A DNA stretch of 64,000 nt from Echinarachnius parma (taxonomy: Eukaryota; Echinodermata; Echinoidea; Clypeasteroida; Echinarachniidae): positions 29,699 to 93,698 of the forward strand of contig JBAMJV010009425.1 in the NCBI GenBank assembly GCA_037951105.1, read 5' to 3'. A program made the position numbers and the translations under genes. Under the pieces are notes generated by a model. The model was not told the origin of the DNA and searched no databases. It was given only the letters and a program-made list of their open reading frames with translations. Of this stretch, positions 6,439 through 61,948 are shown in pieces. Positions within the stretch are counted from its first letter, which is position 1. Every line of letters begins with the position of its first letter.

Positions 6439-33780
<27,342 letters not shown>

Positions 33781-39980: not shown

Positions 39981-41230
39981 TGTTCGTTCGTAATTCGTTG
40001 GAATTATCCCTAATGATTTAGGGATCGAGTTATAATGGTTATTATGTGGTCGTGCCGTTTGCCGTTCTATCACAATCATAAAGAGGCTTTTAGTAACTCT
40101 TTTTAAATCTCATAATTGACCTACTCTGGACAAAGGGTGAACTTTCTGACTTTACATTTCAACTGTTAATTGACAATTTCCTTCCCGACTCCCATTAGGA
40201 GACCTTGGAAATGTTTGTTATGATGGAATTTAACCTGTCAGTGATTATTATGTATTCACATCATACAAAGCTGAAAAACTGGGAGTGCGAATGATATGGT
40301 ATTGACATTTAATACGGGTAAATGGGACTACATAATCGGCATTTTACTTAATTAATCATGACAAGTCGTATGTATGATTTCGTGTTTGATTAGATTTTTC
40401 AAACACAGTAATGCTATACCGTTACCTAGTTACGGTAGTGTGTGAACATTTGAAAGTCTGCGGGTTCCTTGAGTGCCCCTCAATAATGCGTGTCATCGTG
40501 ATAATGACTTTATCCAATACGATCGGCCTAACCTAATTTTGCTCGATCTATTCATTGAGCAAGTTAAGTACCGCTGTCAAATAAAATGCCATTAAATTTC
40601 GTTCACACCGCTTTTTGACAACGGAACTTCGGTAGAGATTGCTATTATATAAACTGCCCTGTTTGTACTTACTACAAATAAGTATGCAGGTTGACTCGAA
40701 AAAAGGGGGAAAGACTTCACAAGACGGGGTTATCTTGTGTGAAATAGAGTGTTGTTGTCTCATATTCTTTTCTTTATTCTCCTCCTTACTTTGGCGTGGG
40801 AGTAACTGGTGTGTGGGTGTGGAAGGAGGGGGCGGGGCTAGACCAATTCACGCATATAACCGTTAACATGGTTACCAGCTAAATCATTACGGCAAAGCTC
40901 TGGCGGCCTGTCGACATCCATATCTCTGGTCTGCCGACATCTGGTATCTCGCTATTCTCCTGAGTACGGCTCAACTGAGGGTGTATCTTATTCTCCAGTC
41001 AGCATCGCATCTAGTAAAACAATCAATTCATTGGCTCTTTGCTCAAAATATACGTATTGATTTGTATTTCCATCGCTGAGCCAAAATGGGCAATTTTGTT
41101 ATCTTAATTTGCATCTGCGCCGTTGTGTCAAAACATGGTAAGTATCAATTAAAAGCTAACTTCACTATCGATCTGTAATGACGTCCACTGTATGCACTCT
41201 TTACAAATATAGCACGAATAGCACAATGAA
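39981..41230 (+). repeat. Copy C of the gene 5' region (upstream of gene 2)
   Basis: Shares the TTCGTTGGAATTATCCCTAA segment with 4406-4430, the GAGACCTTGGAAAT segment, the TACCGTTACCTAGTTACGGT hairpin and the signal-peptide exon with copies A and B. It lacks about 0.9 kb between the CTTGGAAAT and CCTGTCA segments. Confidence 0.75.
41086..41137 (+). CDS. Gene 2 exon 1: signal peptide
   Basis: ATG in CAAAATGG context. Encodes MGNFVILICICAVVSKH with donor G|GTAAGT in phase 1. Matches exon 1 of gene 1 and its upstream duplicate. Confidence 0.8.
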
Positions 41231-44200
41231 TCAATGTGTGGTTTCTATTGAAAAGGTATATATAATGTCAAATTTGTACCTATTAACATAATATACATCG
41301 TTATTCAAATTTGACTCCAATGCACGAGTAATTAGTTTGGGAACAATTCTAAAGTCAAGATAAAATGATAGGTCCAAGGTTCTAAAGGTAACGCCGTTCT
41401 TAACCCCGCCCACCCACCCCCCCCCCCCCCCCCCTCCCCCCCCCGATAGATGACATATTTTCAGCAGACGGGATGGAGGTTCATATAATTCATGTCATTT
41501 TGCTAATGTTGCTTCCAAAATAATGAAACATATCGATAGAGGATGACTGATGATGATTAATGTTGATACGTAAGGTACAGTCACATTGTGTTTATCAATG
41601 ATTATAATGTAAACAAAACGTTTAGATTTAGATGAAATATGTTTCTTAATCGTTTATACATCTTTGTTAAAGGGATAGTTGAGTTTTGGTATAGAGGGCG
41701 CTACACAAAATACATTTTTGGTGAGATAATGAAAAACTGAGTGTCAAATTCGAAAGAGCATACAATTTAAATGACAGAATAAACTTGATTTGATCAAAAT
41801 CCGGTCTGCAAATAAGGATGCCAAAGTAGCAACACAATCGTCGTCATGTTCTCGTTTAAAATGATCAATGTAATTGTAATGCAGAATACTGCGATCTACT
41901 TGATGAATTAGAGGGACAGTTCCTCTTTTACAAAATGTCTGAACAGTTTCCAGTTGACTGATGGGGATGAATATAACACACAACAACAAAATCAGATCGA
42001 ACAGCCCTGTAATTTGCATTATACGAATGAAAAACGAATGCGTCCCTCCATCAAACTATATATTGGTCAATAAAGGAGTTTTACTGATTTAGCATAATAT
42101 TACAACAATATTGTACTCATTCTGGTATAGGTATTGTGAAGCCGACATTTGTAAAGGTATGTCACGGAAAAGGATCAAAAAAATTAAGAATATGTAATTA
42201 CTGGTTATTCCGCTTATGCCATTGTTATTTATGCGCGGGTCACGTAGGGGTCACGCATAGCGATGTAGTACTCCGTGGAATCCGTGTGCGAACTTTCTCA
42301 CCGGGTGAATACACGTATAATGCACAATTAAATGTTGGACAACGGTTTATTAGTTTTAGGTCTATAACTCCACGAAAAAGAGATTTCAAGCCCTAATTTT
42401 TGCAGGCATGCTATTAAATGACATTTTCTTTCATATAAGACAATAACTTCGCAAGCTTTGAAATTTGGCTTGCAAAAGAGAGTCTGTCCCTTTAAGAAGT
42501 AAAAATAAAGACTTAAATACGTATAATATAACGAGATGCCTAAAGCCACTCCGTCGCGCCTATGGGATAAAATTAAAACTTCATGTGTGCTGGTAAATGT
42601 TCTGGTGATCGATCACTAGAGTCCGCTTGCATGTTGTAATATGCAAGTGTTTTGCTACAGAAGTACAGCGTTCGTAGCAATATCCCCAAAACCAGGATGG
42701 AACAGTTAGTTTACTTTGATCTGAAAGGATTCGTCTGAGATGATAAACTATTATATATGGACCATGAAGTTCATATAATTAGATATATTTAATACTTGGA
42801 GGACTTCAATTAAGTAAGCCTAGACAAGGAAGGCAATTAAGAAAGACAATAATTTTTGTTCGTGTGGCATTGGTCATATGTATTAAGTTACAGAGACCTA
42901 TGCACAGAACGGTAGTGATGCTACGTACCGTGTGGGACCTGAAGGAAGACTCATCCGGGACCTTCTGAGCAGCTATGACGTCAGAGAGAGGCCATCTCCG
43001 GACGAAAGTCCTGTCCGAGTCGACATGTATTACGTTCTACAGTCGGTCTTCAATATTGTAAGCACTTACCACACAATCAATTTAATAACTGTTTAACATT
43101 TAAACAATCAGATAAAGATTTGTGTTATAATGAATATAGTGATGACGATGGTAATGATGATGACGTACTAATGGCAATGAAAAAGAAGATGGTAACAATG
43201 ATTGAAATTATTATTATTATTACTATTTTATTCTGCATCAAACACATTTACATTAAAACAAAACAGTAAGTTACAGAGTAATTGTTATACAATACTATCA
43301 CATACATGCACCTAAATCTCGCTGTCAGCTGCACCTGGGCAAGTCGCCCGGGTATGGTAAAAGTTAACTTAAAGGGCAATGAAATCCAGACAAATAATTG
43401 TATGCACTATAAGACAGTAAATAGGATGAATAGTCCCTGAAAATTTGAGCACAGTCGGTCAAGAAATAAGAAAACTATGGCTCTTTAAACAAAAACCATT
43501 TATTTCTATGAGTGACACAAATTGGCAACGCACTCTGGCAAAGTTGTGGACTACTCCCTATACGTTTTGTACACAAAATGTCGATTTTCTCAAAATATAT
43601 ATTTACCCTTCGTTTGAGTTCAACATAATGTTTTGTAGAATGCATTTATACATAACATATCCTGAGTTGGGGGAATGGAAAAATGTGACTATGAAGAAAA
43701 CTGTAAAAATGGGAACATTTGTGTACAAAACATATGGGGAGTAGTCCACACACTTTTCAGAGTGCGTTGCCAATTTGAGTTCCCTATATGAATAAATGGA
43801 CATCTTCAAAGATGTATCTTGCCCGATTATGCTCTAACTTTTAAAGTAGAATTTCATTGAAAATCACAAAATATGAGAATAATGCATCACTAGAGAGCTA
43901 GGGGCTATTACTACTTTGTTTATGTCCCATACCAACACGATATCTTATTACAACAACAAAACAAAACCCCATCACAAGAATCGAAAACAAGCACTCTTTA
44001 CGCTAAAAAACGCCAATGTTTTGATGACGTCATTCATTGAGTAATTTATCATTAGCAGACGATGTCTCATTGCGAATCTACATAACCATTAGTGCACTCA
44101 TATTGTCTGCTAAACGTGTTTTCTTGTCACGAAAGCGCATTTATTGCATTGCATTTTGTAAATAAGGTTCACCTCGACTTATACACAATAATCATTCACT

Positions 44201-47200
44201 CGGAGACATTACGGAAATAAAGACAAATTCAATGAAGTAAGTCACACACCGTCCTACACTATCTGCTTGAAAGACCCGCCGAAGTCTGGGCACGATCTAT
44301 TTGCCCATTGTTCACCAGCTGTATTTTGATGCGGTGTCGCTGAATGTGCATTTTTGTGTGTGATACTTATGGCAGTATGGGCGATGTGATACATTAAAAT
44401 AACGTTATTTAACATGCTTTACGGGAAAATTGTGTGTCAGAGAACAATAAAGTGCTTTTAAGAGTGAGGCAGAGGAGCAAATAATGACAAATATTCTCCT
44501 CAATAAACAAGGATGATTGAACAGAGTCATGTTAAAAAGGCACTGTAAAATGTGTATGTTATATATCGGACATCGTCTGCTAATGATGACTTACTCAATG
44601 TATGACGTCATAGTATTGTTAGCTGGTTTCGGCGGGACTTTTGATGCCACAATACTGGCTTACGCATTACCACTAATTCATTGATGATAACTCATCAATA
44701 ACAATGTTATGAAACACTTATTTGTAATATTCGTATTATGGAGTATGTATGAAATATGGAAATATGAACTGAATCTAAATAGAAAAACAATGAAATTCTA
44801 CTTTAAAGATTATTCCTCCTAATCGCTTCAAGTCTATTAAGCAACATTTTGCTTGGATTTCAGTGGTGTTTAATAACTATAGTCCGCAGACTCCCCTTAG
44901 CTGACAACATGAGAATAATTTCTTCAGCGATTAAAGACAATTTAAACAATTAATTAACTGGCAATGATTATATAAAATTACTCACAACAATAATTAAAAA
45001 GTCTAAACTTGAACATTTGAAATGGAGACAATGGCAATATGATAAGTATTGAGATCATGTTATAGATGTGATAGATGTGATAGAGATATAGGAATTAAAG
45101 AGGAGAAAGAGCATTGGAGAGGGTGTAAACAGCATTTTCCACTATGCTTACCCGTATAACGATGCCTATATCATGTATATGGATGCTTTCATGATAACTA
45201 CATTTACCATTATCTATTTTTTACAGGATGCCAAAACCCAAATATTCTCTGGCTCTTCGTGGTTTATGTTGGTAAGATTTTGTTGGTACGACATTCTTTA
45301 AGTCATAATCTAAATTTACATCTGTACATGAAGCATTGGGAACTTCCCCAAATGATTATTGCAAACGTTAATTTTGTTAATTTTGTTATTACACAGCATT
45401 TGTCAATAATGTCAAACTCAGTCTGCCGGTAAAAGGAAATTGTATAAATCAACTAACTGATATATGATACTAACAGATAGAGCTGGGTTTGGTATAAGAT
45501 TTAGTATTGGAGTACGTGTAAGAGCTAAGTATTTGCCAGGTTTCGGAATCAGCGTGTGTAACAATATAATCTTCGTTGCAAATAATAATCATCGAGCAAA
45601 TGTCGCTAAAGCTAATGTTACAGAAAACATTTTATAGGCTGTGCCCTTAATACAATGAGGGGTCTGAATCCGTACGAAAATTATACTGTTTGTTTGTTTG
45701 TTTGTTTGTTTATTTTATTTCCACTTTTTCACATCAATACAAAGAAACATCATACAAATATATAAAATGAGTAACATGTAAGTTTAACAAAATATGTTTC
45801 TAATTAAAATACAAGCAAAAACAAATATATGAATTGGTGCCAATCCATCGTGAAAATAATCTGCATAATATAAAATAAGAAATAAGGGGGAGAATGGATA
45901 TCTTATGTAATGCTTGGTAAGTTTCTTATAAAGGAAAAAGCAGGAGACCACATGTCGTAAGCGTAAAAGCTTGATGATGAATGTGGCCTCTGCCGAGTTA
46001 GCAAATAAAGAACAACCTATGCAAGGGACGCGATTAAAAATCCATTTATCAATTGTATTATAAATTTGTGTGTTATATTCAAAATAAAATAAAATATAGG
46101 TAAAATAATTCAAAGTGAGCATGGCTGAATTAATTTCGAGTGAAAATAACAAAATATATTTAGTGACAAGTTTCGTATTGAGAAGTGCATTTGTGCATAG
46201 TGCAAAACTTTAGCTTGGTGCATAGAACAATAAGAGACTAATATCGTGAAATTAAGTGTGTGGTGGTTTCAATTACGTGTAATAATATTAAAATGTATTA
46301 AAATGTATGCAGGGCCCTTTCCTATTGACAAACAAAATAGAACAATTCCAAGATATAACAAATCAAATTATTTAACATTTCTATGTAAGATCTAGCAAAC
46401 TATACTGAGTTAACAAATATGTTTTCATATTAGCTTTAAATGAATAAAGGGAGGTCCTAATTTTAATATGGTTAGGTAAGTTATTCCAAATATCTGGTCC
46501 ATGGTGTCTAATTGATCGTAGGGCTAAACTAAGTTTGGGATTATTAAGATGGTAATCATGAGCATGTCGAGTTAAATACGAGTGTACGTTTACATTTAAT
46601 AAATAAAAGTTTAGGAAAGATGCTGGAAGTGTTTTGGAAGTATACTTATACATAAAAATGGCAGTTTGGAGCGTATGTATGTCATAAACCTTTAACGTTT
46701 TTAATTGACTAAATAACGGGTTAGAATTTGCAAGATAATTAGAGTGTGTACAAATACGAATTGCTCTCTTCTGCAGAAGAAATATTGAGTTTATTTTCAT
46801 TTTACTACAATTTGCCCATATAATATTACAATATGTTATATACGGTAAAATTAAAGTATTATAAAGAGTAAATAAAGATTTATCATTTATCAAATATTTC
46901 ATTTTATACAAAATACCAATATTCCGGGATATCAAAATAGTTATATTATGAATATGTTCATTCCAAGACAAATTTGAGTCAATAGTAACTCCTAAAAATT
47001 TAGTTGACTGTTTTTCTACCAGGGATAAACCATCTATAAACAAATTACATTGAGGTTGGTCTTGGGAGTTAATAGTTCTAAAACGAATGAAATTAGTTTT
47101 ACTTATATTTAAGGATAATTTATTACATTTAAACCATAATGAGATATTACACAAATCATGATTTACAGTATCAACAAGTGTATCAATATTTTTGTGTGAG

Positions 47201-50200: not shown

Positions 50201-53200
50201 CACTCTCACCGAAGACGCGCACGCGACCGGCATGCATGACAAAAGGAACCAATACGCTATACAAATCGCATAGGGCATGAGCTCCAGCCATGCATACCAA
50301 GCCGCGGGCACGCCCCCGAAGAGAATGCCGTTAATTAGCATTGCATATGAATGTACACTACATACGAATGATAGTATTCAAGGTTATCATAATACCATGG
50401 ACCATCAATTAAAGTAAATTTAATACTGAAAGAAATTGCAACTAGTATTTTGTATTCTTTATACAACAGCATTAAAGCATAAGGGGTAGCAAAATTAGTA
50501 TCAATGTCAATAACAAGGGGAAAATACATGCGTAACACCATGGCTGGTACAAATCCATGAAATAAAACAAAATAAATGTGCCACTGTTTAGTACTAGCTG
50601 CTGTACAATATTTTCAATTTCCACTAGTACTTCGAATTTGCATAGTGGTCACATAATTACAACACATCCATCGTTCAAAAATGTTGTGGAAGTGTCAACA
50701 AACAATTATAAATACAGAGAAGAAAATAAAACATATATATATATGAACAAAATACAGAGTTATCTGTTATCTGTTATTATGTTGCCCATAATGTTGGAAA
50801 AGTTTATTTTTCAGATCCAACTTCATACTTTTTAAACATATGTTTACACCCCAGCAGCAATTTTAGACTATAATGTGTCCACACTACCAATGAACAACGA
50901 ATTGTTGCATGAGTTTGCATTTAGTAATATAGCCTTTTGTTTGGAGCTATGGAAGGCAAAACCTTTGATGCTTGGTCCCTTTCCCTCTCCAAGGCCCATG
51001 TCCAACACGTTATTGTTATGGCACATTTATCAGAGTTGGCTGTAAATCTTTTAACCACAATTCTACAGAGGCTCTCTAGGCCGTCCGACGCCATTGGCTA
51101 TACGCCAAAGTATGCTTGTGATGTGCAAGACTTGAAAAAAGAAGTCACGAATCGGCGGGGCGTAATATTTACGCGTTCCAGAGCAATCAGGAAAATCGTG
51201 GAGGGGGGGGGGGGGGGGGGGTGCCACAACGGCCCCGGCCTTATTAGGATTAAGCACTGTCCCTTATACCCCCGTCAGACTATGCTACGCTCTCGCGCCG
51301 ACCTGGCGCCGCTCCTAATCCCCATTCATAAAATTGGAAGCGTGGGGAGGACGTGGGGAGAGCGTGTTGAGGTCGTGTGGAGAGCGGCGTTCATTGTTCT
51401 CTATTGTTTAGATCGTACACTTTTCTCGGCCGCTCTGGCGCCGCTCCCGCGGCGACCAAGTTAAATTAGCAAATTGGCAACGCAGTGGGCAATGAATGGG
51501 AAGATTATCTCACATGCGTCAATAGATATCCTGCTCGATGAACAAAAGAGCAGGACGTAGCTAGCTCGGCGTTCGCTTTGGACATGTTGAAAAACGAACT
51601 TGGGGCTTCGGCGTCCTACTCTTTGTTCAGGGGCTATTGTATGTCCATGCATGGGAGGATATCTTTTCACACAAGTGTCATAATCTTCTCATTCATTCCC
51701 AAGTTGAACAAAAGACATTCTTGCAGATCTATTCCAGCACTTCTGCTAGTGGACGCCATAGATTGCGAAGTTTGACACGTTTCAACTATAGGTAAAATGA
51801 TATCACAATTTAAAATGGCATGTCCGGGCAAAAATAATGTACATTCGGGGGAAACACAATTTCTGGCTAAAACGTGGCATGGCGGCATACAAATTATATG
51901 AGGCTCCAATGAATGGGGACATACGCACACCCTATGTATGCATTATGAACACATATTTCCCGCAAATATATGATTGTTTTGTCCAAAATCTACCACTACT
52001 ACCACCACTACCACTACCACTACTACCACTACTACCACTACTACCACCACTGCCACCACTGCCACCACTGCCACCTGTCACTGCCACCACTGCCACCACT
52101 GCCACCACCACAACTACAACTACCACTACCACTACCACTACCACTACCACTACTACCACTACTACCACTACTACCACTACTACCACTACTACTACTACCA
52201 ATGATAGTCAACAATAATAACCCTCCCCATTCCCTCCACCCAACCTCGTGAAACGCACTGAGTGTGTTCAACTACATTCGTACATGGTATTGGATCGCAC
52301 AGAGCGTGTGCATGGAGATCGTGTTTCCCCTGCGCTTTGAAATTTTTTTAAATTTTTTTATAAGTACGAGAACGCAGACAGAGCGTAGAGCAAATGACCT
52401 CGTCTCATTGTTATGAGCTATTGTTAAAGATACACCAAGCGTGCACAGTGAATAGCTCGGAAAGCGTGGCCAAAGCGTACGCAGAGCGTGTTCAGGTCGT
52501 GGCAAGAGCGGGAACGAGCTACCATTGTGTCATTAATCGCTCGATTTGTCGGCGTTTCCCCTGCGCTTTGGACAAAATGTTTTTTTTTTTTATAAGTACG
52601 AGAACGCAGACAGAGCGTGGCTATAGTGTGACGGCACACTTAGCAGGGGTGGCCCAATCAAGGATCATGGGTCACATTCGTTGTCAGTGACTGATATATA
52701 TTTCAAGGAGTAATATTACACATTTTCATGCCAACAATGCGCTTCAACAGGTGTCATCTTTAATGCTGACCAAAGTTGCAAATTGATAATTGATAATATC
52801 CTTAATACTGCGCTGCAGTTCCCCCCCCCCCCCGCCCCCCCCGGCCCCTATTTTGGTTTTACGGTCAATATGCACGTTGCGAAGGACAAGTGTACTTTAA
52901 TTTCATTGTGATAAGATTTTAAGAACTTGATCAATAAGGTATTGTGGTCATACACACCAAACACATCATAAACAATTCACAGTGTCACATTTAACTTCGT
53001 ATAAAGTTGTAAAAATATATATTTATTCTAACTTAATGGGCAACAGTGTATTACTTGAACCATATGTGTATGTTTCTTTACACCATTTAGGACTGGGTAG
53101 ATGAGAGGTTGACATGGGATCCCAGGAAGCATTCTGGTATCAAGTCGTTGAACCTGAGAGCAGATCAAATATGGGCTCCTCCAATATTCCTCTTTAACAC

Positions 53201-56200
53201 GTAAGTATTATATGTATAATGGTTGTGGTTTTATAAATAAGTACCATCACAAGTAAGATCGTCGTTCAGTTAGATCTCAGAGTAGCTCTGCGTATACTCA
53301 CTGAATAAATTTATGATTACATTAAAAGATTATGTTTGATCAGTATTCCAGTCTGAGTTTTTTATCAAAAGTAACTACAGTAACAAACAGTAACTACAGA
53401 CAATTGTAATGCATCCATCAGTAGGTGGCATAGCGTGGTCGGACTGATTTATTTATTTATTTTTATATATATATATTTTTTTTTTGGGGGGGTGGGGTGG
53501 CATGTGAAATGTTGGGGCACCTACCATGCATTTATTTTGTATGGATTGTCTCGTTATGTAGTCCAGTCAATCTAGCAAATATTAGGGGGTAACCTCGGCA
53601 AAATTACAACATGGGATTTTTCTTCGCAATTTCGTTCAGGAAACTCCCCTGAACAACATACAAAAAGTCCTAAGAAATCAAAGCTGGGGAAAGTGGTTTA
53701 ATTTGCATTATAAAGATGATTAGCAAATTTGCATAATTGTGAAATAAGGTCAGGGGTCATTTTCTATCTAGGAATAGTACACTAGTAATTAAAACAAATA
53801 TTCTAAGGTATTTTGGGGCAAGAAATCCATTTCCGGTGCTCGTTTGCGAGTGCCATATGGGCAAAACCCTGAAATCCAAGATGGCTGCTTCCTAATTTGA
53901 AATATTTATGAATATTATTGGTTTTCAGTGGCTACAGCCTCTATTAAGCAATAATTATTATTTTTTTTTTCTTTAATCATGTTCTAAATGTATATCAAAG
54001 ATACTTCAGCTTGGTTGCCCCCTTGGCAACCTCTAGCAATGCATATAATTAGCATAATTTTTTATTATTTACCTAATTTGCATATTCCCCCATATTGAGT
54101 ATATTGGGAACCCGGAAAGTAAAAATGACGAGAAATACCACTTTCCCAAGGTTTCGGGGGGGGGGGGGGGGGGGGGCAGGAAATCCATTTATGATACCTA
54201 ATTCGACGTATCACCTTAGCAACCCACATAAATCCAAGATGGCCGTCTTTGGCATTTTAAAGGAGATAATGCTATTTGCAACTTTAACGGCATTTGTTTT
54301 GGAGGGCATAATTTGTTTACTGTTAGCAACCAGCTACATTGAAATATAAGTATTCCAATTGCTAATTCCAATAATTGAGATTCCAAAAATTATAATGTTG
54401 TTCGAATATAACCAAAAGAATGAAGTTGTGTATCATTACATGTGCAATTTGGGGAGCAGCCATCTTGGATTTAAGAAGGTTGCCATGGTGCTATATGGAA
54501 ATAAGTATAAAAAATAGACTTGTTGCCCTCCAAAACCTTGGAAAAGTGGTATAACTTTTTTTACTTTCCGGGTTCCCAATATACTCAATTTGGGGGAATA
54601 TGCAAATTAGGTAAATAACCCAATTATGCAAATTATATGCATTGATAGAGGTTGCCAAGGTGGCAACTAATCTGAAATAGCTTCACTACATATTTAGAAC
54701 ATAAATGAAAAATAATAATCTGGAATTATTGCTTATTAGAGGCTGTAACCAGTGAAAACAATAATATTCATACATATATGCAAATTAGGGGCAGACATCT
54801 TGGCTTTTAGGGCGTTGCCTATACGACACATGCAAATGAGCACCGTTAATGGATTACATGCCCTAAATTACCCTAGCATAATCGTTTTTATCAATATTGT
54901 ACTATTCCTAGATAGAAAATGACCCCTGACCACATTTCAGAAATATGCAAATTAGCTAATTATCCTTATAATGCAAATTAAACCACTTTCCCTAGCTTCG
55001 ATTTCTTAGGACTTTTATTATGTTGTTCATGGGAGTTTCCTGAACAGAATTCCGAAGAAAATTCGCAAGTTGCATTATTTGAATTGTCAAATTATTATGG
55101 GGCACGTGTTCCAGCCCGTAGCTTCGCCACTGGTTACCACCACTTAAAAATCCTCCCATGACTTGCTAAGCCCCGCCCGTTAAATTAGCTACCTTCAGGC
55201 ATTGTTTGATTTTCGAAAATGATGTGCTATGCAATTCCTACACTAAGCCTTAGTTTTCGCTTTAATTTGTCTTGAAAATAGTGAAGTCTTCTGCATTGCT
55301 GTTGTACTTTCAAACCAAAACAATATCTGCTTGATCGAAAATCCGTTCATAAATAGTTGACATATATCTATACATACAGCAATTTTAAACCAACACGTTC
55401 GTAAAAAAAAAAAATATATATATATTTATTTCTGATTAACCAACAAATACATTGATGATATATCGAGGTGTTTGCATAGCGCCTTATGTGTTAACCGCTC
55501 AAAAATAAACACAGCCTTCGTAAGAGTCCTTACGATTTCTTTCCAGTATGATGACCGATAACCGCACATTTTAGGTACGTCCCCCCCCCCCCCCCCAAAT
55601 ATCTAAGAAAAAAATAACAAGTATATATTGCGGACCATTTTGAAATAATAAAACAAAACATAAGTTTTGCCCCCAATAATTTGTGTGCCCCTCCCCCAGT
55701 TATTACGACCACGCTACGCCACTGCAGTCAGCGTGGTCGAGACTTTGCTCTTTACATGCTCAGACGTACACACAAGCATGTTATTTTCTTTGAAAGCGCT
55801 TTCATGACCTTGAATCATAATTGTTTTTAATGGATATATGTTTCTTTTTTAAAATTCATTTTTAATCATATTTATATTTGAACTGTATTATTTTACATTT
55901 CGTTTGTTTGTTGTGATGCACGTGCAATTTATACTACTTTCTTTCTCATTTCCCACAGCCTACAGATCGCAACACAGAACGCGCCAAATCACATTCTAAC
56001 CTTCGAGAATATCAGTACAATTCTCATACATTCCGACGTGGGATCAGAGTGGAACTTGCTCAACTCTACGTCAAATATCACCGAGTTCGATTACCCTCCT
56101 TTTAACGCAACATACGAAGTTCTGTATTTCTGCCTTGATCTCAAACGACTGCCTAAGTTCTACATTGAGAGTCTAGTTGCCCCAATTGCGCTGATCAGTT

Positions 56201-59200
56201 GGCTTTCGCTGGTTGTCTTTATGGTTCCTCCCAAGAGCGGGGAGCGTTTGTCTACAGCCATTTCGCTGGTCCTCGGACTGACTGTGTTCCAGATTGTTGT
56301 GTCAGACAGCTTTCCACAAACCTCACGCGGTAAATTTAGCACTCAAGTTATAATTATTTTAAAGCCTCAACATAATACTTGTACCATGTTTACTGAATGT
56401 TATGATAAACTCTAGTGTATATTCCAATACCAAACTGTCCGGTTTACAATGGAACCATTGAACATTACCGGTATTACCGGATTACCGGTACATCAATACA
56501 TTATACAGATGTTAAAGTCATACCTGTAAAGTGTCAGATATTGCACAAAATGACATTTGAGACTTCAATCCTATATCAATATCATTGTAAAAATACAATT
56601 GAAAGATTTGTGAAAGTTTGAAAGTAAACGAACACTGTTTACCTAGTGAAAAAAACGAATATTGATTTCATATTTTATCACCGAATACCGATGGTCTGCC
56701 ATACATTTGTCGCAGTAATGAATGATCCGTTTGAGATATTCGCACCCGTGTTAGTATGTTTACACACGTAGTACAGAATTCATGGAATTTGAACTCGCTC
56801 GGCTCAAAGTTCAATCTCCGGAATGTTCTCACGGGTGCTGCATGCGGACGTTCTCAGCTAGGACAATTGTACTTTTTATCAAAAGCGTTAATCAACGTGA
56901 TTGAAATAAAAGATTTAAATGATAATTATCTTCATACTAAAGGGACATTTGAAAAAATCAAACCCTATTTTATTCTTCTTTTACCATAAGCTAAACAACA
57001 CGGTAGAAGAGAAACGAGGAAGCTCCAAGTAATTTTCGTGGATTTGGACACTTTACAGGTATGACTTTAACTAGTGGTGGAGGCAACATCATGGAATGTT
57101 CCTCTCTGAGGGAATTTGCTATTAAGGGAAGATTGTAAGTCCCGAGACGTATAGTATATCGACTCATGTAAAACAGCAATTTTTTCAAATATAATCTTGG
57201 AAACAGTATTTAATATGGTCTAAATACATCACTGATGAGAAAAAATTTGCATAATTTGCATATTTCTGAAATAAGGTCAGGGGTCATTTTCCATCAAGGA
57301 ATAGTACAGTAGTAATCAAAACAATCATGACAGGGTAATTTGGGGCAAGGAATCCATTTCCAGTGCTCATTTTCATGTGCCGTATGGGCAACGCCCTAAA
57401 ATCCAAGATGGCTTCCCCTAATTTGCATATTTATGAATATTATTGATTTACAGTAGCTAAATCCTCTAATAAGTATTATTTACAGGTCATATGGATTAAA
57501 TCATGCTCTCAATGTATATTAAAGATACTTCAGCTTGGTTGCCACCTTGGCAACCTCTGACAATGCCTAAAATTAGCTTAATTTGATTATTCACCTAATT
57601 TGCATATTCCCAGAAATCGTGTGTTTTGTGAACCCAGAAAGCAAAATCAATATCACTTTTCCATGGTTTTAGGGGGCAACGAATCCATTTATGATACTTA
57701 TTTCGACGTATTACCTCGGCAACCCACATAAATCCAAGATGGCTGCCTTTGTCATTTTGAAGGAAAACTGCTATGTGCCACTTTAACAGCAATTATTTTA
57801 TAAAGATGTAATTGTTTTACTGTAAGCAACCAGCTACATTGTAATAACAATATTCTAGTTTCTAATTCCAATAATAGAAAGTCAAAAAAGTACATAGTTT
57901 ACAAAATAAATGCTGTTAAAGTGGCACATTGCAGTTTTCCTTTACAATGCCAAAAGCGGCCATCTTGGATTTATGTGAGTTGCCGAGGTGATACGTCGAA
58001 ATAAGTATCATAAATGGATTCATTGCCCTCTAAAACCATGGAAAAGTGGTATTTCTCGTTGATTTTACTTTCTGGGTTCACAAAACACACGATTTCTGGG
58101 AATATGCAAATTAGGTGAATAATCAAATGAAGCTAATTATAGGCATTGTCAGAGGTTGCCAAGGTGGCAACCAAGCTGAAGTATCTTTAATATACATTAG
58201 GAGCATGATTTAATCTATACGACCTGCAAGTAATACTTATTAGAGGATGTAGCTACTGTAAATCAATAATATTCATAAATATGCAAATTAGGGGAAGCCA
58301 TCTTGGATTTTAGGGCGTTCCCCATACGGCACATGAAAATGAGCACTGGAAATGGATTCCTTGCCCCAAATTACCCTGTCATGATTGTTTTGATTACTAC
58401 TGTACTATTCCTAGATGGAAAATGACCCCTGGCCTTATTTCAGAAATATGCAAATTAGCTAATTATCTTTAAAATCGCCAAAATGCACCCTGGGACCAAA
58501 AGTAAAAAATGGAAACATCACTTTTTCTTATCAGTAATGTATTTAGACCAAGTTAAAAACTGTTTCCAAGATTATATCCAAAAATGTCACAACATTTATT
58601 TTTACTACATTAGGGGATATACTAGTAGACGAAGTACATTTTGTATGAATGTACACTGAATTTTGGCGCGGAATGCAGACCGACGCATGACCGAATATAT
58701 ACATTCGGAAAATACCCCTCAAACGACCCCGAATTAGTCGGTTTGCTGTCCGTATTCACCAAAACATGCCACATGTGAAACTGGGTATCGGAAAGGCAGC
58801 GGAAGGGGAGACGTACGCACCGTGTTTATGTCCTATACAGGGTGGCCCAAAAAAAACGGAACGGGGCACTTCCCAAAATATAGTACCAACATATTTATGT
58901 CCATTGGATAGGGTGTCTTTTCCCATGAAAACGATACCAAGAACAGTAATTTTGGTCGTGTAGGTTTTGTTTTAGGACGCTGTGAGTGAGACCATGTCAG
59001 GTGCCTATTTTTGTCATTTTTTACCTAGTCAATGCCGGTTAAATTGCACTCCCTGCCCGTAATACCATTCAACGAACATGCCCATTCTCTCGACACACGG
59101 CTGAGTGCACACTAACAATGGCGCGCCTTGTTCAACGCTATGAAAGGCGGTACGTGCGATCTATCAAGCACTGGCTCTGTAAAAATTGACAAAAAAGAGA

Positions 59201-61948
59201 ACCTGACATGGTGTCACTCACAGCGCCCTAAAACAAAAACTACACGACCAAATTTACTGTTCTTGGTATCGTTGTTCATTTGAAAAGGCACCCTATTCGA
59301 TGGACATAATACATTTGTAACTATATTTTGGGAAGTGCCTCGTTCCGTTTTTTGGAGGGGCCACCCTGTATAGGGTGAACAAATAAAAAAAAAACGGACC
59401 GCCATGCTTCCAATATCATCGGCACAAAATGATTGATTCCACTGGTAATCTCCTCCTAAGAAATGTAATACCAGTCGCGACAATGTTGGCAAAGTATTGA
59501 TAGTTTTATGGGGCATTTTCTTCAAATTAATTACAATATTGTACACATATTTATAGACGACTTTAACCTAAAATATCATGCCTTAATATTACTGGCCATA
59601 GTATCAGCATTGTATGCACAACAACTACATAATTATGATGATATTGGTTATATTTTCCTTGATCAAATATTACTTGTCTACTAAAGCCAATCATATTTTC
59701 CCATGATCATATGATATGGGAAATATGCCATATCGTTTTTATCTTGGTCACTCTGGTTACACTCGAAAGGTTTCAAGCCCATTCATTCTAACATATGCAT
59801 CGTGAAGCCAAAACTAGTTGAACTACATTTCATTTCGAGGTATCTAGTAACTTTATTTACCGCTCAGCGAATACAACAAGGTATGTGAGAACCGGCTAGG
59901 GTTCTCATTAATTGCCATCCTGGTGTTAGGATTTTGAAAATTTTACTAGATTCCTTTGATATGTTTTACTACCTTTCCTTCAATCATATATCTCTTCCAG
60001 GTGAATCGCCCATCGTTATGGTGTTCGTGAGGAACTCTTTCATAATTTCAATCGTAGTCACTATCTGCTCCGCCATCGTTATCAACATTGCCCACCACCA
60101 AGGCAATATCCAAAACAAGGTACGTTGAAAGATAATCATGAGCATAAGCGTATGAGGCGTGGGGGCTGCTGTACCCTCTGGAGTTTTGAAAACGGCAATT
60201 TTCGGGTAAAGCATTTTGAAAACGGCAATTTTCGGGCAAAAAGCACCAAACTTTTAGGCAAAATTATTTCATATTCGGGCAAAAATGTATCGTATTTGGA
60301 CAAACTCATATCACATTTGGGCAAAAGCAGGTTATATTCGGAAAAACTCATAAAAGTTATCAATTTTGGGCGGTAAAATTTTGATCAAATGTTTTATTTG
60401 TATTTCTTTCCTTTTCGGCTTGTGATGCACAAACGGGGAAGATGGTATAAGGGCAAAATACCTCAGCCCCCTGGAACGAAAAAATGCCCCTACGCCCATG
60501 AGTATGAGGTCTGATGGATAGAATGTCATCTAAGTCCCCCTTAAACCCTTGGCAGTGTATCAATGTATACATACATTCATTGTGAAATGAAATTAAGTTG
60601 TAAACAACAGAAAGAGAATGCGTAAATGTTTAGAAATCCCCCAAAATGCTTATAAATAATCCGCAGAGTAATTGGCCAATTTCTACTTTTCATTGAAGTT
60701 CCTTCTGTCTTTTCTATTTTTGTTACCAGACCTTGCGCATGCTGCTCCACCGGGCACTCGCTCCATGCCTACTGGTCCGGGATCCCATAGCGCAGCGATC
60801 CCTACAAAGAGATGATGACGAGACCGCATCACTGGTAACGATGTGTTTTTATCTATTCCACTTAATGTGTTTCCAGACCTTGCGCATGCTGCTCCATCGC
60901 ACCCTCGCTCCATCATGTCCATGTTTACTGGTCAGGGATCCCATAGCGCAGAGATCCCTGCAAAGAGATGATGACAAGACTGAAGAACTGGTAACGATGT
61001 GTTTCATCTATTTCACTTTAAAGGCATGCCTGTAAAGTGTAAAATGCTGCCGAAAGAGACATTTGAGACTTCAATCCTAAGTCAATATTATTGTAATATA
61101 CAATTAAAAGATGTGTGAAAGTTTGAAGAAAAACGAACCCTGTTTACCTCGTGAAAAAAACGAATATTGAGTTCATATTTTATCACCGAATACCGATGGC
61201 CTGGCGTAGATTTGTTGCAGTAATAATCATCCGTTGGACGATATCCGCACCCGTGTATGTTTACAGACGGTACAGAATTCATGGAATTTGCGCGCGCTCG
61301 GTTCAAAATTCAGTCGGGTCGGGAAGCTTTCCCACGCGCGCTGGCCGGACGTGTTCAGCTACGACAATTGTACTTTATTTGAAAAGCGTTTGCTAACGCT
61401 TTTCAAATAAAAGATTTCAATGATAATTATTTCATACTAAAGGGACATTTGAAAAAATCTAACCCTATTTTATTCTTCTCTTACCATAAGCTAAACAACA
61501 CGGTATAAGAGAAACGAGGAAGCTCCAACAAAATATCGTGGAGTTATAGACACTTTACAGGCATGCCTTTAATGTGTTGCACCCCGACGTTCAGTCGAAC
61601 ATGAAACACATTCGGGCAATCGCAAACCAAATCAATTACAAACAATTAATCAATGTTTGACAAATGAAATCATTGATGTATGCTTAAATTAATTTTTGAA
61701 TGGAAAGAAAATTATATTGTGACGGGTTTCGAAACAGCAATTTCCAGATCATCATGATTACTTTCATAAAATAATGTTGGTTTGTTGCCGTTGCTAGTGA
61801 TTTAATTTTGTTTTTCTACGAACAGGAGGTCGACTCCGTGACTGACTACGAGATCCTAGCGAGTGTGGTGGACAGGCTCTTCTTTGTAGCAATCGTCACC
61901 TCACAGACAGTCATCACGGCACAATTTGTCATATCCATCTCGTCTTAA
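41086..61948 (+). CDS. Gene 2: nAChR-like Cys-loop subunit paralogue lacking the Cys-loop exon
   Basis: Exons: 41086-41137, 42894-43057, 45227-45271, 53091-53200, 55959-56329, 60001-60119, 60730-60834 and/or 60877-60990, 61826-61948. Joining these (one exon 8) gives an open frame of 363 codons including stop. Exons, splice sites and flanking introns match gene 1, so this is a tandem duplicate. The 153-nt exon carrying loop E and the Cys-loop is not found between 53200 and 55959. Its loss is frame-neutral because both its borders are phase 2. M1-M4 are intact, with GER before M2. A product without the Cys-loop would probably not fold as a normal receptor, so this may be a decaying copy, a diversified subunit, or one with an assembly gap. 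Confidence 0.72.
41138..42893. other. Gene 2 intron 1
   Basis: No gene seen. C18 and C9 runs at 41417-41444. A truncated family 1 MITE starts at 41671. The end, from 42560, matches gene 1 intron 1. Confidence 0.5.
41671..41816. mobile_element. Truncated TTAA MITE, family 1
   Basis: AGGGATAGTTGAGTTTTGGT after TTAA (41667-41670), then the GATTTGATCAAAAT block. It stops at about 41816 without the other end. Confidence 0.65.
42894..43057 (+). CDS. Gene 2 exon 2: N-terminal helix
   Basis: 164 nt, acceptor TTACAG, donor ATT|GTAAGC. Encodes ETYAQNGSDATYRVGPEG and RLIRDLLSSYDVRERP. It is nearly the same as the gene 1 exon. Confidence 0.87.
43203..43375 (-). mobile_element. Minus-strand retroelement 3' fragment
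   Basis: The minus strand reads CCCGGGCGACTTGCCCAGG ... AGAATAAAATAG followed by an (ATA)n-like tail. Confidence 0.4.
43376..44815. repeat. Inverted-repeat element(s) in gene 2 intron 2
   Basis: 43505-43580 and 43725-43800 are inverted (GGCAACGCACTCTG, GGACTACTCC). 44022-44068 and 44567-44612 are inverted (ATTAGCAGACGATGTC). TAAAGTAGAATTTCATTG at 43843 is inverted at 44798. Probably a MITE of about 1 kb next to or around a smaller one. Confidence 0.6.
45227..45271 (+). CDS. Gene 2 exon 3: 45-nt exon
   Basis: Encodes DAKTQIFSGSSWFML between TTACAG and GTAAGA. Same size and phase as gene 1 exon 3. Confidence 0.87.
45272..45690. other. Gene 2 intron 3 before LINE 2
   Basis: Collinear with gene 1 intron 3 (about 9720-10040); no gene seen. 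Confidence 0.45.
45691..50330 (-). mobile_element. LINE 2: CR1/L2-like retrotransposon, apparently near full length
   Basis: The minus strand carries a 5' leader (from about 50.3 kb, limit uncertain), the intact ORF 49368-46381, a 3' UTR and a terminal (AAAC)n tail at 45691-45715. It is inserted antisense in intron 3 of gene 2. Gene 1 has no such insertion there. Confidence 0.8.
46381..49368 (-). CDS. LINE 2 endonuclease / reverse transcriptase, intact 995 codons
   Basis: APE endonuclease at about residues 48-262: HINARSMNKN, GITETWL (80-86), GVMYRPP (153-159), MGDYNINLL (187-195), SDHLPIF (255-261). Reverse transcriptase at about 536-800: NYRPISLLSS, MDLSKAFDTIDH, GVPQGSILGPLLF, FADD (715-718). 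The C-terminus has the PSLRLC-less, LTRHAHDYHL ... GPDIWNNLP block seen in this LINE group. No stop or frameshift. A 112-codon frame overlaps its start upstream (49682-49344); I see no family features in it. Related to LINE 1 at 18 kb but a different family. Confidence 0.9.
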   Translation of the reverse strand: MYIEFIHMNFDIEINQDVTENESRYYTIDDFNAAFNLNNDDHNQQSLSLLHINARSMNKNFESMDLFFSSIQHFPFSIIGITETWLNNKSPPLFNIENYKLIRVDRNYGRGGGVALYIHDSLLFKERPDLHVDGSEYIFIEIINKQAKNILVGVMYRPPHSNIDMFVDGLEESLSLISRENKIIYLMGDYNINLLPPAFNNIGLRLLTTLSSYSLHPHINKATRITNVTETLIDNIFSNICNEDTQNGILYFDISDHLPIFVISPTIKLSKLEPMKYIYVRKETDANIQSFRDDLASESWADVYNLVDANNAYDIFLNKLMYYYNKNIPLVRIKLNKNKAKKPWITRGILRSIATRNRLYKKALRSKDNNDLDKYKKYRNKLTSIIRLSRKLYYSNKILSTQNNNSLWNIIKDLTGKKKHINTNINVNGQDINNLKECANLFNDYFVNIGPTLASKIDAGNNNFSQYLFEPSENSLFFTPTTIYEVVCIVQSLKSSKSSGQDGLSMNLIKQIIHFIVSPLVYIFNISLSTGSCPNLLKVAKVIPIYKKDDPSKLQNYRPISLLSSISKVLEKLVYNRLISFLNEHDILIPNQFGFRKNHSTDFALIQLCDKIIESLAKKEYVIGIFMDLSKAFDTIDHTILLHKLEHYGIRGLALSWFEDYLKNRTQYVYYYSNSSSKLNLTCGVPQGSILGPLLFLIYVNDIIRSSNILTYILFADDTNIIYSHKNIDTLVDTVNHDLCNISLWFKCNKLSLNISKTNFIRFRTINSQDQPQCNLFIDGLSLVEKQSTKFLGVTIDSNLSWNEHIHNITILISRNIGILYKMKYLINDKSLFTLYNTLILPYITYCNIIWANCSKMKINSIFLLQKRAIRICTHSNYLANSNPLFSQLKTLKVYDIHTLQTAIFMYKYTSKTLPASFLNFYLLNVNVHSYLTRHAHDYHLNNPKLSLALRSIRHHGPDIWNNLPNHIKIRTSLYSFKANMKTYLLTQYSLLDLT
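50331..51274. other. Gene 2 intron 3 after LINE 2
   Basis: No gene seen. A G19 tract lies at 51203-51221. The 5' limit of LINE 2 may lie further into this stretch. Confidence 0.35.
51275..52638. mobile_element. TIR element with an internal CCACTA/CCACTG minisatellite
   Basis: CCGTCAGACTATGCTACGC near 51272 is inverted as GCGTGGCTATAGTGTGACGG near 52615. Inside: a 232-bp direct repeat (CCTGCGCTTTG ... GAGAACGCAGACAGAGCGT at 52328 and 52560) and repeated GAGCGTGTTSAGGTCGTG words. Confidence 0.55.
51990..52201. repeat. (CCACTA)n / (CCACTG)n minisatellite
   Basis: Trinucleotide/hexanucleotide array of ACT, ACC and CTG triplets. The long Thr, Val or Gly ORFs across it are not genes. Confidence 0.9.
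52639..53090. other. Gene 2 intron 3 end
   Basis: No gene seen. C13 run at 52821-52833. The last 60 bp match gene 1 before its exon 4. Confidence 0.5.
53091..53200 (+). CDS. Gene 2 exon 4: loop D Trp, WDP motif
   Basis: 110 nt, acceptor ATTTAG, donor AC|GTAAGT. Encodes DWVDERLTWDPRKHSG and ends IWAPPIFLFN. Loop A Tyr is absent, as in gene 1. Confidence 0.87.
53599..55083. mobile_element. Fold-back element 1 (about 0.6-kb inverted arms)
   Basis: 53599-54170 is inverted at about 54520-55083: GGTCAGGGGTCATTTTCTAT and its complement, AAGTCCTAAGAAATC, TTGCCCCCTTGGCAACC, CCAAGATGGC. It lies in the gene 2 intron exactly where exon 5 would be expected. Confidence 0.75.
55084..55958. other. Gene 2 intron just before exon 6
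   Basis: 55090-55510 matches gene 1 intron 4 (12560-12980) and 55860-55958 matches the end of gene 1 intron 5 (31140-31241). Thus intron 4 and intron 5 parts are joined with no exon 5 between. C16 run at 55581-55596. Confidence 0.6.
55959..56329 (+). CDS. Gene 2 exon 6 equivalent: loops B-C, M1, M2
   Basis: 371 nt, acceptor CCACAG, donor CGCG|GTAAAT. Encodes RLPKFYIESLVAPIALISW and GERLSTAISLVLGLTVFQIV. It joins in frame to exon 4 (AC+C gives Thr). The first residue is Thr-Leu-Gln where gene 1 has a Cys across its exon 5-6 junction. Confidence 0.86.
56516..57066. mobile_element. TTAA-flanked MITE, family 2, first copy
   Basis: Perfect 20-bp ends AGTCATACCTGTAAAGTGTC and complement, TTAA at 56512-56515 and 57067-57070. 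The empty site is kept in gene 1 (GATGTTAACTAGTGG near 31785). Size 551 bp; no transposase frame. Confidence 0.82.
57184..58592. mobile_element. Fold-back element 2
   Basis: Ends with AATATAATCTTGGAAACAGT and TTTAGACCA blocks and their complements; arms of about 0.6 kb. The inside shares CAGGGGTCATTTTC, CCAAGATGGC and GCCAAGGTGGCAACC with fold-back 1. Confidence 0.75.
58593..58835. other. Gene 2 intron 6 segment
   Basis: Matches gene 1 near 31850-31960 (GAATGTACACTGA, GCATGACCG). No gene. Confidence 0.45.
58836..59370. mobile_element. TACAGGGTGG-family MITE, best-preserved copy
   Basis: TACAGGGTGGCCC ... GGGGCCACCCTGTA flanked by TA on both sides (58834-58835, 59371-59372), 535 bp, with CGGAACGGGGC arms. 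The TA target and TACAGGG ends suggest Tc1/mariner-type mobilisation. Confidence 0.7.
59373..60000. other. End of gene 2 intron 6
   Basis: Collinear with gene 1 31970-32563; no gene seen. Confidence 0.5.
60001..60119 (+). CDS. Gene 2 exon 7 equivalent: M3
   Basis: 119 nt, acceptor TTCCAG, donor AAG|GTACGT. Differs from gene 1 by VVTICSA in place of VVAICSA; otherwise the same protein. Confidence 0.87.
60120..60729. repeat. Gene 2 intron 7 with a GGGCAAAA-rich repeat
   Basis: Same repeat as in gene 1 intron 7, with a local 30-bp tandem duplication of TTTTGAAAACGGCAATTTTC (60183 and 60212). Confidence 0.55.
60730..60834 (+). CDS. Gene 2 exon 8a: first copy of the duplicated intracellular-loop exon
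   Basis: 105 nt, phase 0 to 0, acceptor TTACCAG, donor CTG|GTAACG. Encodes TLRMLLHRALAPCLLVRDP and the tail DDDETASL. A second copy starts 42 nt downstream of its end. Confidence 0.75.
60877..60990 (+). CDS. Gene 2 exon 8b: second copy of the duplicated intracellular-loop exon
   Basis: 114 nt (38 codons), acceptor TTTCCAG, donor CTG|GTAACG. Encodes TLRMLLHRTLAPSCPCLLV, with a three-codon enlargement around SCP, and the tail DDDKTEEL. The 42-nt spacer from 8a (60835-60876) is in frame and has no stop, so read-through of both copies, or a choice of one, are both possible. Confidence 0.72.
61022..61568. mobile_element. TTAA-flanked MITE, family 2, second copy
   Basis: Ends AGGCATGCCTGTAAAGTGT and complement, TTAA at 61018-61021 and 61569-61572, 547 bp. 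The inside is close to 56516-57066 (GTTTACCT.GTGAAAAAAACG, CCGAATACCGATGG). It lies between exon 8b and the MA-helix-like frame. Confidence 0.8.
61571..61660 (+). other. MA-helix-like frame in gene 2, cut off from exon 8b by a MITE
   Basis: Encodes NVLHPDVQSNMKHIRAIANQ and ends in TGA at 61658. A weak GT (GTTTGA at 61655) would be in the phase needed to join exon 9. The TTAA-flanked MITE at 61022-61568 separates it from exon 8b. The AG of GTTCAG just before TCGAAC could act as acceptor. Confidence 0.5.
61826..61948 (+). CDS. Gene 2 last exon: M4 and stop
   Basis: 123 nt, acceptor GAACAG. Encodes EVDSVTDYEILASVVDRLFF and M4, ending SISS and TAA. A possible ATTAAA lies at 62327. Confidence 0.87.
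   Translation, partial: EVDSVTDYEILASVVDRLFFVAIVTSQTVITAQFVISISS

Follow-up and report, generated by a model that had tools for sequence, protein, structure and literature searches.

The Cys-loop is the namesake of its receptor family and is held to be important for folding and gating. In the oyster Crassostrea gigas, 8 of 141 ligand-binding domains of nicotinic acetylcholine receptors (nAChRs) are reported to lack it (PMC6896357). In humans, the partial duplicate CHRFAM7A (dup-alpha7), with a truncated extracellular domain (ECD) and an intact channel part, is described as assembling with the full subunit and reducing the current it carries, an effect not seen in all cell systems (PMC8998457). 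Transcripts without single or multiple exons have been described for Tuta absoluta alpha6 (exon 3; PMC5111602) and Bombyx alpha4 (exons 6-8; PMC2045683). Finally, receptors of the Cys-less Pro-loop type are reported to occur, including in some invertebrate metazoans (PMC4795631).

Gene 2, the subject of this study, resembles each of these systems in part. Like the oyster domains, it is a genomic nAChR-family copy without the Cys-loop; in gene 2 this reflects clean loss of an exon from an otherwise complete gene, a comparison made at the level of the oyster domains (PMC6896357). Like CHRFAM7A, it combines a truncated ECD with an intact channel part; however, the N-terminal part described as replaced in CHRFAM7A is kept in gene 2, which has lost an internal ECD exon instead (PMC8998457). 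Exon-skipped transcripts yield subunits without an ECD or channel exon through splicing, whereas in gene 2 the exon is gone from the gene itself. The Cys-less receptors are described as retaining the loop and its invariant proline, and gene 2 is devoid of the whole segment (PMC4795631). Literature searches covering titles and abstract openings returned no description of gene 2. What is new here is that a single symmetric exon has been lost cleanly, at the genomic level, from a gene that otherwise appears constrained; Cys-loop-less copies were already known.

A tandem pair of nAChR-like genes

The window, the whole 64-kb stretch of DNA analysed, corresponds to positions 29699-93698 of contig C9408 and reaches the end of that contig (assembly size 1.2 Gb, 14,790 contigs). 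It contains a tandem pair of nAChR-like genes, gene 1 and gene 2, on the same strand and 7.3 kb apart (Table 1). Farther upstream is gene 0, another paralogue, whose exons 2 to 9 occupy C9408:7003-21243, so that three such genes are neighbours on this contig. Gene 0 is also represented by a haplotig on C1232 (97.8% identical across 2.5 kb), and C1799 carries a fourth paralogue. Gene 1 and gene 2 share exon plan and intron phases; all introns are GT-AG, including every intron border of the gene 2 model, whose reading frame is intact. Exon 3 (45 nt) and exon 4 (110 nt) resemble their counterparts in vertebrate nAChR genes.

Table 1. Features of the gene 1/gene 2 locus (window coordinates)
Feature	Position	Strand	Remarks
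Gene 1	6439-33780	+	complete nAChR-like subunit, 413 aa
Gene 1 exons 1-5	6439-6490, 8501-8664, 9037-9081, 12128-12237, 14297-14449	+	
Gene 1 exons 6-9	31242-31612, 32564-32682, 33271-33375, 33658-33780	+	
Gene 1 exon 5	14297-14449	+	153 nt, phase 2/2; whole Cys-loop (CSLNLHKFPFDEQTC) plus the stretch before it
Gene 2	41086-61948	+	362 aa using exon 8a; without Cys-loop
Gene 2 exons 1-4	41086-41137, 42894-43057, 45227-45271, 53091-53200	+	
Gene 2 exons 6, 7	55959-56329, 60001-60119	+	
Gene 2 exons 8a, 8b, 9	60730-60834, 60877-60990, 61826-61948	+	
Gene 2 fused intron 4/5	53201-55958	+	GT-AG, 2758 nt, without exon 5
Fold-back mobile element	53607-55072		within intron-4 part; second copy at 57245-58475
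Final detected intron-4 homology	55474-55509	+	versus gene 1 12942-12980
Filler, left part	55510-55573		weak likeness to exon-5 acceptor
Dispersed repeat copy	55574-55727	-	77% to consensus
Retained intron 5 start	55729-55773	+	versus gene 1 14482-14526, from 33rd base of intron 5
Intron 5 3' end to exon-6 acceptor AG	55874-55958	+	homologous to gene 1 31155-31241

The gene 1 protein matches Pfam families PF02931 (119 bits) and PF02932 (54 bits), and its closest PDB structure is neuronal alpha-4 (E 9.5e-42). The gene 2 protein has muscle-type beta as its closest solved structure. Its match to PF02931, the ligand-binding domain, scores 82.7 bits and covers profile positions 2-97 of 216 only, whereas PF02932 is matched at 57.8 bits and four hydrophobic segments are found at residues 191-215, 220-243, 249-280 and 340-360, bearing out the claim of a preliminary description that the product has M1-M4 and no Cys-loop. 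Both genes encode SGERLS before M2, a GEK/GER-like motif from which cation selectivity is predicted, the GEK motif having been tied to that property (PMC2045683). Gene 2 is thus like the nAChR-like non-alpha subunits in its two Pfam domains, its GER motif and its hydrophobic segments; it differs from them in having no Cys-loop (the C-x13-C pattern is missing from the protein and undetected in the intron), no loop E, no invariant Pro-loop proline, the segment being deleted, and no vicinal cysteines in loop C. The last are absent from both genes, which have a single cysteine each in that region (Cys233 in gene 1, Cys182 in gene 2). The two genes are tandem paralogues within a cluster of nAChR-like, non-alpha pentameric ligand-gated channel genes. 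Cys182 is the sole cysteine remaining in the gene 2 ECD past the leader; it matches Cys233, whose possible partner, Cys175, was lost at the exon junction.

Other peculiarities of the cluster were recorded. The remaining ECD has five N-glycosylation motifs in gene 2 and three in gene 1, an observation concerning positions 141 and 163 of the gene 2 protein. Gene 2 carries two tandem copies of exon 8 (8a, 105 nt; 8b, 114 nt), both of phase 0 with splice sites present; the 42-nt gap between them is probably below intron size, and they are possibly alternative exons. The first exon of gene 1 and its upstream region are duplicated as well (2045-2095 and 6439-6490); the copy at 2045-2095 is one base shorter and does not join gene 1 exon 2 in frame, and another copy encoding the identical protein precedes the window at C9408:27113-27163. 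Intron 5 of gene 1 includes some 15.4 kb (14519-29891) flanked by a perfect 21-nt inverted repeat, with retrotransposon-like stretches judged by eye; at this place the intron is short in gene 0 and gene 2. C1799 bears a pair of gene copies, about 20.4 kb apart (238988-263674), whose exons 2-4 encode identical proteins; the second breaks off at the contig end, and the pair would reflect either a recent tandem duplication or an assembly duplication.

Deletion of exon 5 from gene 2

Exon 5 of gene 1 has the length, phases and complete Cys-loop (C-x13-C, with FPFD) attributed to it in the preliminary description; the stretch preceding the loop we take, from family anatomy, to be loop E. Searches for a counterpart in gene 2 were negative on both strands, as that description had it. 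A tblastn search of all 64 kb with the exon 5 protein found gene 1 (108 bits) and nothing else above 17.7 bits. When exon 5 DNA was aligned to the gene 2 intron, equally good scores were obtained with 128 of 300 shuffles on the plus strand and 286 of 300 on the minus strand. An exon-5 profile built from gene 1, alpha-4 and alpha-6 rows scored no more than 0.7 bits in any tile overlapping the intron, versus 95 for gene 1. Together these results rule out a hidden or diverged exon 5 inside the intron. A move elsewhere in the genome was likewise ruled out: the exon-5 protein had 28 matches at E 0.01 across 1.2 Gb (60 candidates scored), the four with at least 60% identity being gene 1, gene 0, the gene 0 haplotig and C1799, and the remaining 24 showing 49% or less. 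Thus, a gene 2 exon 5, for which the preliminary description had proposed a tblastn search, was found neither in the window nor among the candidates scored in the assembly. Queried with gene 2 exon 4 DNA, the assembly gave 11 matches: one each in gene 2 itself, gene 1, gene 0 and the gene 0 haplotig, two on C1799, and five short ones falling in the following intron; neither exon 4 nor exon 6 disclosed a second copy or allele of gene 2 in the assembly. A more distant paralogue on C7647 and C1605, its upstream exons cut by contig ends, has no exon 5 in the stretches examined; its missing portion is possibly represented by a 46% exon-5 match towards the end of C11178.

Since the exon-5 segment is present in gene 0, C1799 and the human subunits aligned, its loss from gene 2 is derived. 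The symmetry of exon 5 makes in-frame splicing from exon 4 to exon 6 possible, and these two exons do join in frame across a GT-AG intron, as previously proposed. The predicted product keeps the N-terminal leader and the initial portion of the ligand-binding domain, together with the pre-M1 region and M1-M4. The "luck of phase" to which the open frame had been ascribed is no small coincidence, given that lengths divisible by three occur in three of the seven internal exons of gene 1 (exons 3, 5 and 8).

The junction could be delimited by collinear homology to gene 1, extending from exon 4 through intron 4 (53091-53385, 53499-53546, 55084-55141, 55256-55312 and 55474-55509) and resuming in intron 5 towards exon 6 (55729-55773 and 55874-56000). 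The block at 55729-55773 is 78% identical to gene 1, a score equalled by none of 2000 shuffles. The fusion of intron 4 to intron 5 recognized in the preliminary description therefore stands, but intron 5 returns at 55729 rather than at 55860, and a filler (55510-55727) including a mobile element had passed unnoticed. The right 154 nt of this filler are a copy of a dispersed element. The right end of the copy, GCTACGCCACTG, reaches 55724 (55727 with CAG included) and so comes within 1-4 nt of the intron-5 block; no left end was recognized in the filler. A genome search with 55440-55958 yielded at least 44 matches, the window plus 43 others, with 40 of 179 candidates scored; all 43 fall within query positions 135-295 (window 55574-55734). 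Among 11 copies aligned from this set, the right end was present in 9 and the left end, CAGTGGCGTAG, matched in 5, one with a mismatch (60 nt shown). Identity to the consensus is 84-99% for these 11 copies and 77% for the one in gene 2, which suggests that the junction element is not fresh; it may predate the deletion, so that its divergence does not date the loss. As for the left part of the filler, its likeness to the exon-5 acceptor region was equalled by 24 of 1000 shuffles for gene 1 and 70 for gene 0; the corresponding numbers were 84 for C1799, where the match lies away from the acceptor, 679 for gene 1 12960-13268 and 966 for gene 0 intron 4, all five comparisons being uncorrected. A possible 28-nt pseudo-exon lies at 55547-55574 (acceptor tttccag, donor GTACGT), with an in-frame TAG if spliced in.

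Because one deletion end falls within 4 nt of the terminus of the element, the deletion is associated with it. Exon 5 was thus lost in a local, mobile-element-associated deletion that reached across the exon from intron 4 to intron 5; insertion of the element may have come first, or the element may itself have initiated a deletion next to it. The fold-back element of intron 4 is a separate insertion and was rejected as the cause of the loss: it is flanked on either side by intron-4 homology and does not adjoin the junction. The assembly gap at this element that the preliminary description had contemplated is not there, the window being free of Ns.

Selective constraint on gene 2

In the alignment of gene 1 with gene 2, 72 gap openings accompany 438 substitutions over 3142 noncoding sites; the 1089 coding sites show 116 substitutions and are free of gaps. 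The indel count was made in 9 collinear blocks taken from 22, the 13 dropped blocks comprising matches to the exon 1 duplication and to mobile elements, short pieces and the exon 8b block; the exon-5 loss and the insertion in exon 8b (9 nt, in frame, relative to gene 1 exon 8) stand outside the coding count. The aligned coding exons of gene 2 have neither indels nor stops. On a wholly neutral gene 2 branch, 11-15 disabling events would be expected; that none is seen limits the neutral share to about 20-27% at most, if both branches are equally long and the noncoding rate is uniform (among exons, pairwise dS ranges from 0.09 to 0.53). In simulations, the open frame survived 0.1 neutral substitutions per site in 4.5% of 4000 runs.

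A comparison of dN/dS, also proposed in the preliminary description, gave branch omega values of 0.45 for gene 1, 0.52 for gene 2 and 0.56 for the background (307 codons; gene 0 and C1799 as outgroups). Exons 1 and 8 were left out, since neither gene 0 nor C1799 yielded an exon 1 and no exon 8 was located for C1799. Equality of gene 1 and gene 2 was not rejected (2dlnL 0.08), and neither, at the 5% level, was an omega of 1 on the gene 2 branch (2dlnL 2.89 for all codons, 0.70 for the ECD, 3.07 for the transmembrane part, TM). ECD omega is high across the whole group (background 0.59), making the branch test weak in power. Replacements polarised with gene 0 numbered 16 in each gene; the probability of 16 or fewer of 32 in gene 2 is 0.019 if its branch is fully neutral, 0.048 if three quarters neutral and 0.12 if half. 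Unique changes at otherwise invariant sites were similarly distributed (gene 1 versus gene 2: ECD 6 versus 6, TM 6 versus 5). Gene 2 scored 82.7 bits against the Pfam ligand-binding domain, 57.8 against the TM domain and 112.6 against its top PDB entry, versus 73.5, 54.4 and 114.0 for gene 1 minus exon 5; the ECD part encoded by exon 6 matched no Pfam family in either gene. Pairwise omega was 0.18 in M1-M3, 0.08 in exon 8, 0.63 in the ECD and 1.03 in M4; for the whole gene it did not differ significantly from 0.5 (2dl 0.57).

These comparisons disfavour long-standing decay and suggest that constraint was absent for no more than roughly a quarter of the gene 2 branch since duplication. Hence either the loss is recent, or a Cys-loop-less subunit has been maintained; the sequence data would be compatible with a loss during approximately the final quarter of the branch. 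The alternative originally put forward, a dying copy or an unusual subunit, thus holds as such, except that a dying copy as a long-standing state is disfavoured by the absence of indels and stops, the dN/dS values, the equal replacement counts, and Pfam and PDB scores comparable to those of gene 1 minus exon 5.

A Cys-loop-less subunit or a young pseudogene

By analogy with dup-alpha7, gene 2 may encode an exon-deleted, constrained subunit that enters or captures gene 0/gene 1 pentamers and lowers or alters their activity, a reading to which we attach an about even probability. The deletion removed exon 5 and left intron 5 from its 33rd base, and splicing of exon 4 to exon 6 would then yield a 362-aa subunit without the Cys-loop and the stretch before it. 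Through most of the period after duplication, its coding exons appear to have been about as constrained as those of its complete sisters, suggesting that the product is probably made and used. Loop E belongs to the complementary binding face, and the Cys-loop contacts the M2-M3 linker; with both missing, gene 2 alone should not form an agonist-gated channel. The subunit would bind no agonist on its complementary face and would not couple binding to gating, so its most likely role would be that of a silent or dominant-negative partner of the gene 0 and gene 1 subunits. Use of the cryptic acceptor ending at 55546 would add the TAG of the pseudo-exon and counts against an intact product. It seems unlikely that selection has kept a subunit which, although loop E, the Cys-loop and the surrounding strands are missing, folds and assembles with a rebuilt ECD-channel coupling and serves its tandem neighbours as an obligate regulatory partner.

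Recent pseudogenisation is plausible, if somewhat short of probable: exon 5 would have been lost late, the protein would be misfolded or degraded, and the open frame would reflect the youth of the decay. A neutral spell of up to about 20-27% of the branch would often enough leave no stop or indel, the 16 versus 16 replacements fit a neutral fraction of 0.25-0.5 (P 0.28-0.12), and removal of an ECD exon, exon 3, from human alpha7 is reported to have abolished function, giving non-functional receptors (PMC5111602). On the other hand, Pfam scores, indel counts, branch omega and replacement counts carry no decay signal, and the divergence of the junction element does not suggest a fresh event, although the element may be older than the deletion. 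An assembly error or a collapsed haplotype, with exon 5 retained in the true gene 2 or in another allele, appears improbable. Haplotigs do exist in this assembly, as for gene 0, and repeats lie at and near the junction, but no additional exon 5 close to that of gene 1 turned up among the 60 candidates scored, and homologous intron blocks are collinear on both sides of a junction without Ns. Gene 1 and gene 2 could conceivably be used jointly, through read-through from gene 1 exon 5 to gene 2 exon 6, the 3' exons of gene 2 serving as an alternative channel cassette. Their common strand, 7.3-kb spacing and compatible phases would permit this, and pairwise omega is lower in M1-M3 and exon 8 than in the ECD. 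However, gene 2 possesses a start exon of its own as well as upstream homology, its ECD exons are equally intact, the outgroups indicate that high ECD omega is group-wide, and M4 is unconstrained in this pair, all of which makes conjoined use highly improbable.

Gene 2 may therefore be either a truncated regulatory subunit or a fairly recently disabled copy. If the loss is recent, gene 2 is an ordinary mobile-element-associated exon deletion. In any event, an exon-deleted gene standing beside intact sisters provides a ready experiment on whether a Cys-loop-less subunit can assemble, and it bears on whether truncated receptor copies persist as regulators.
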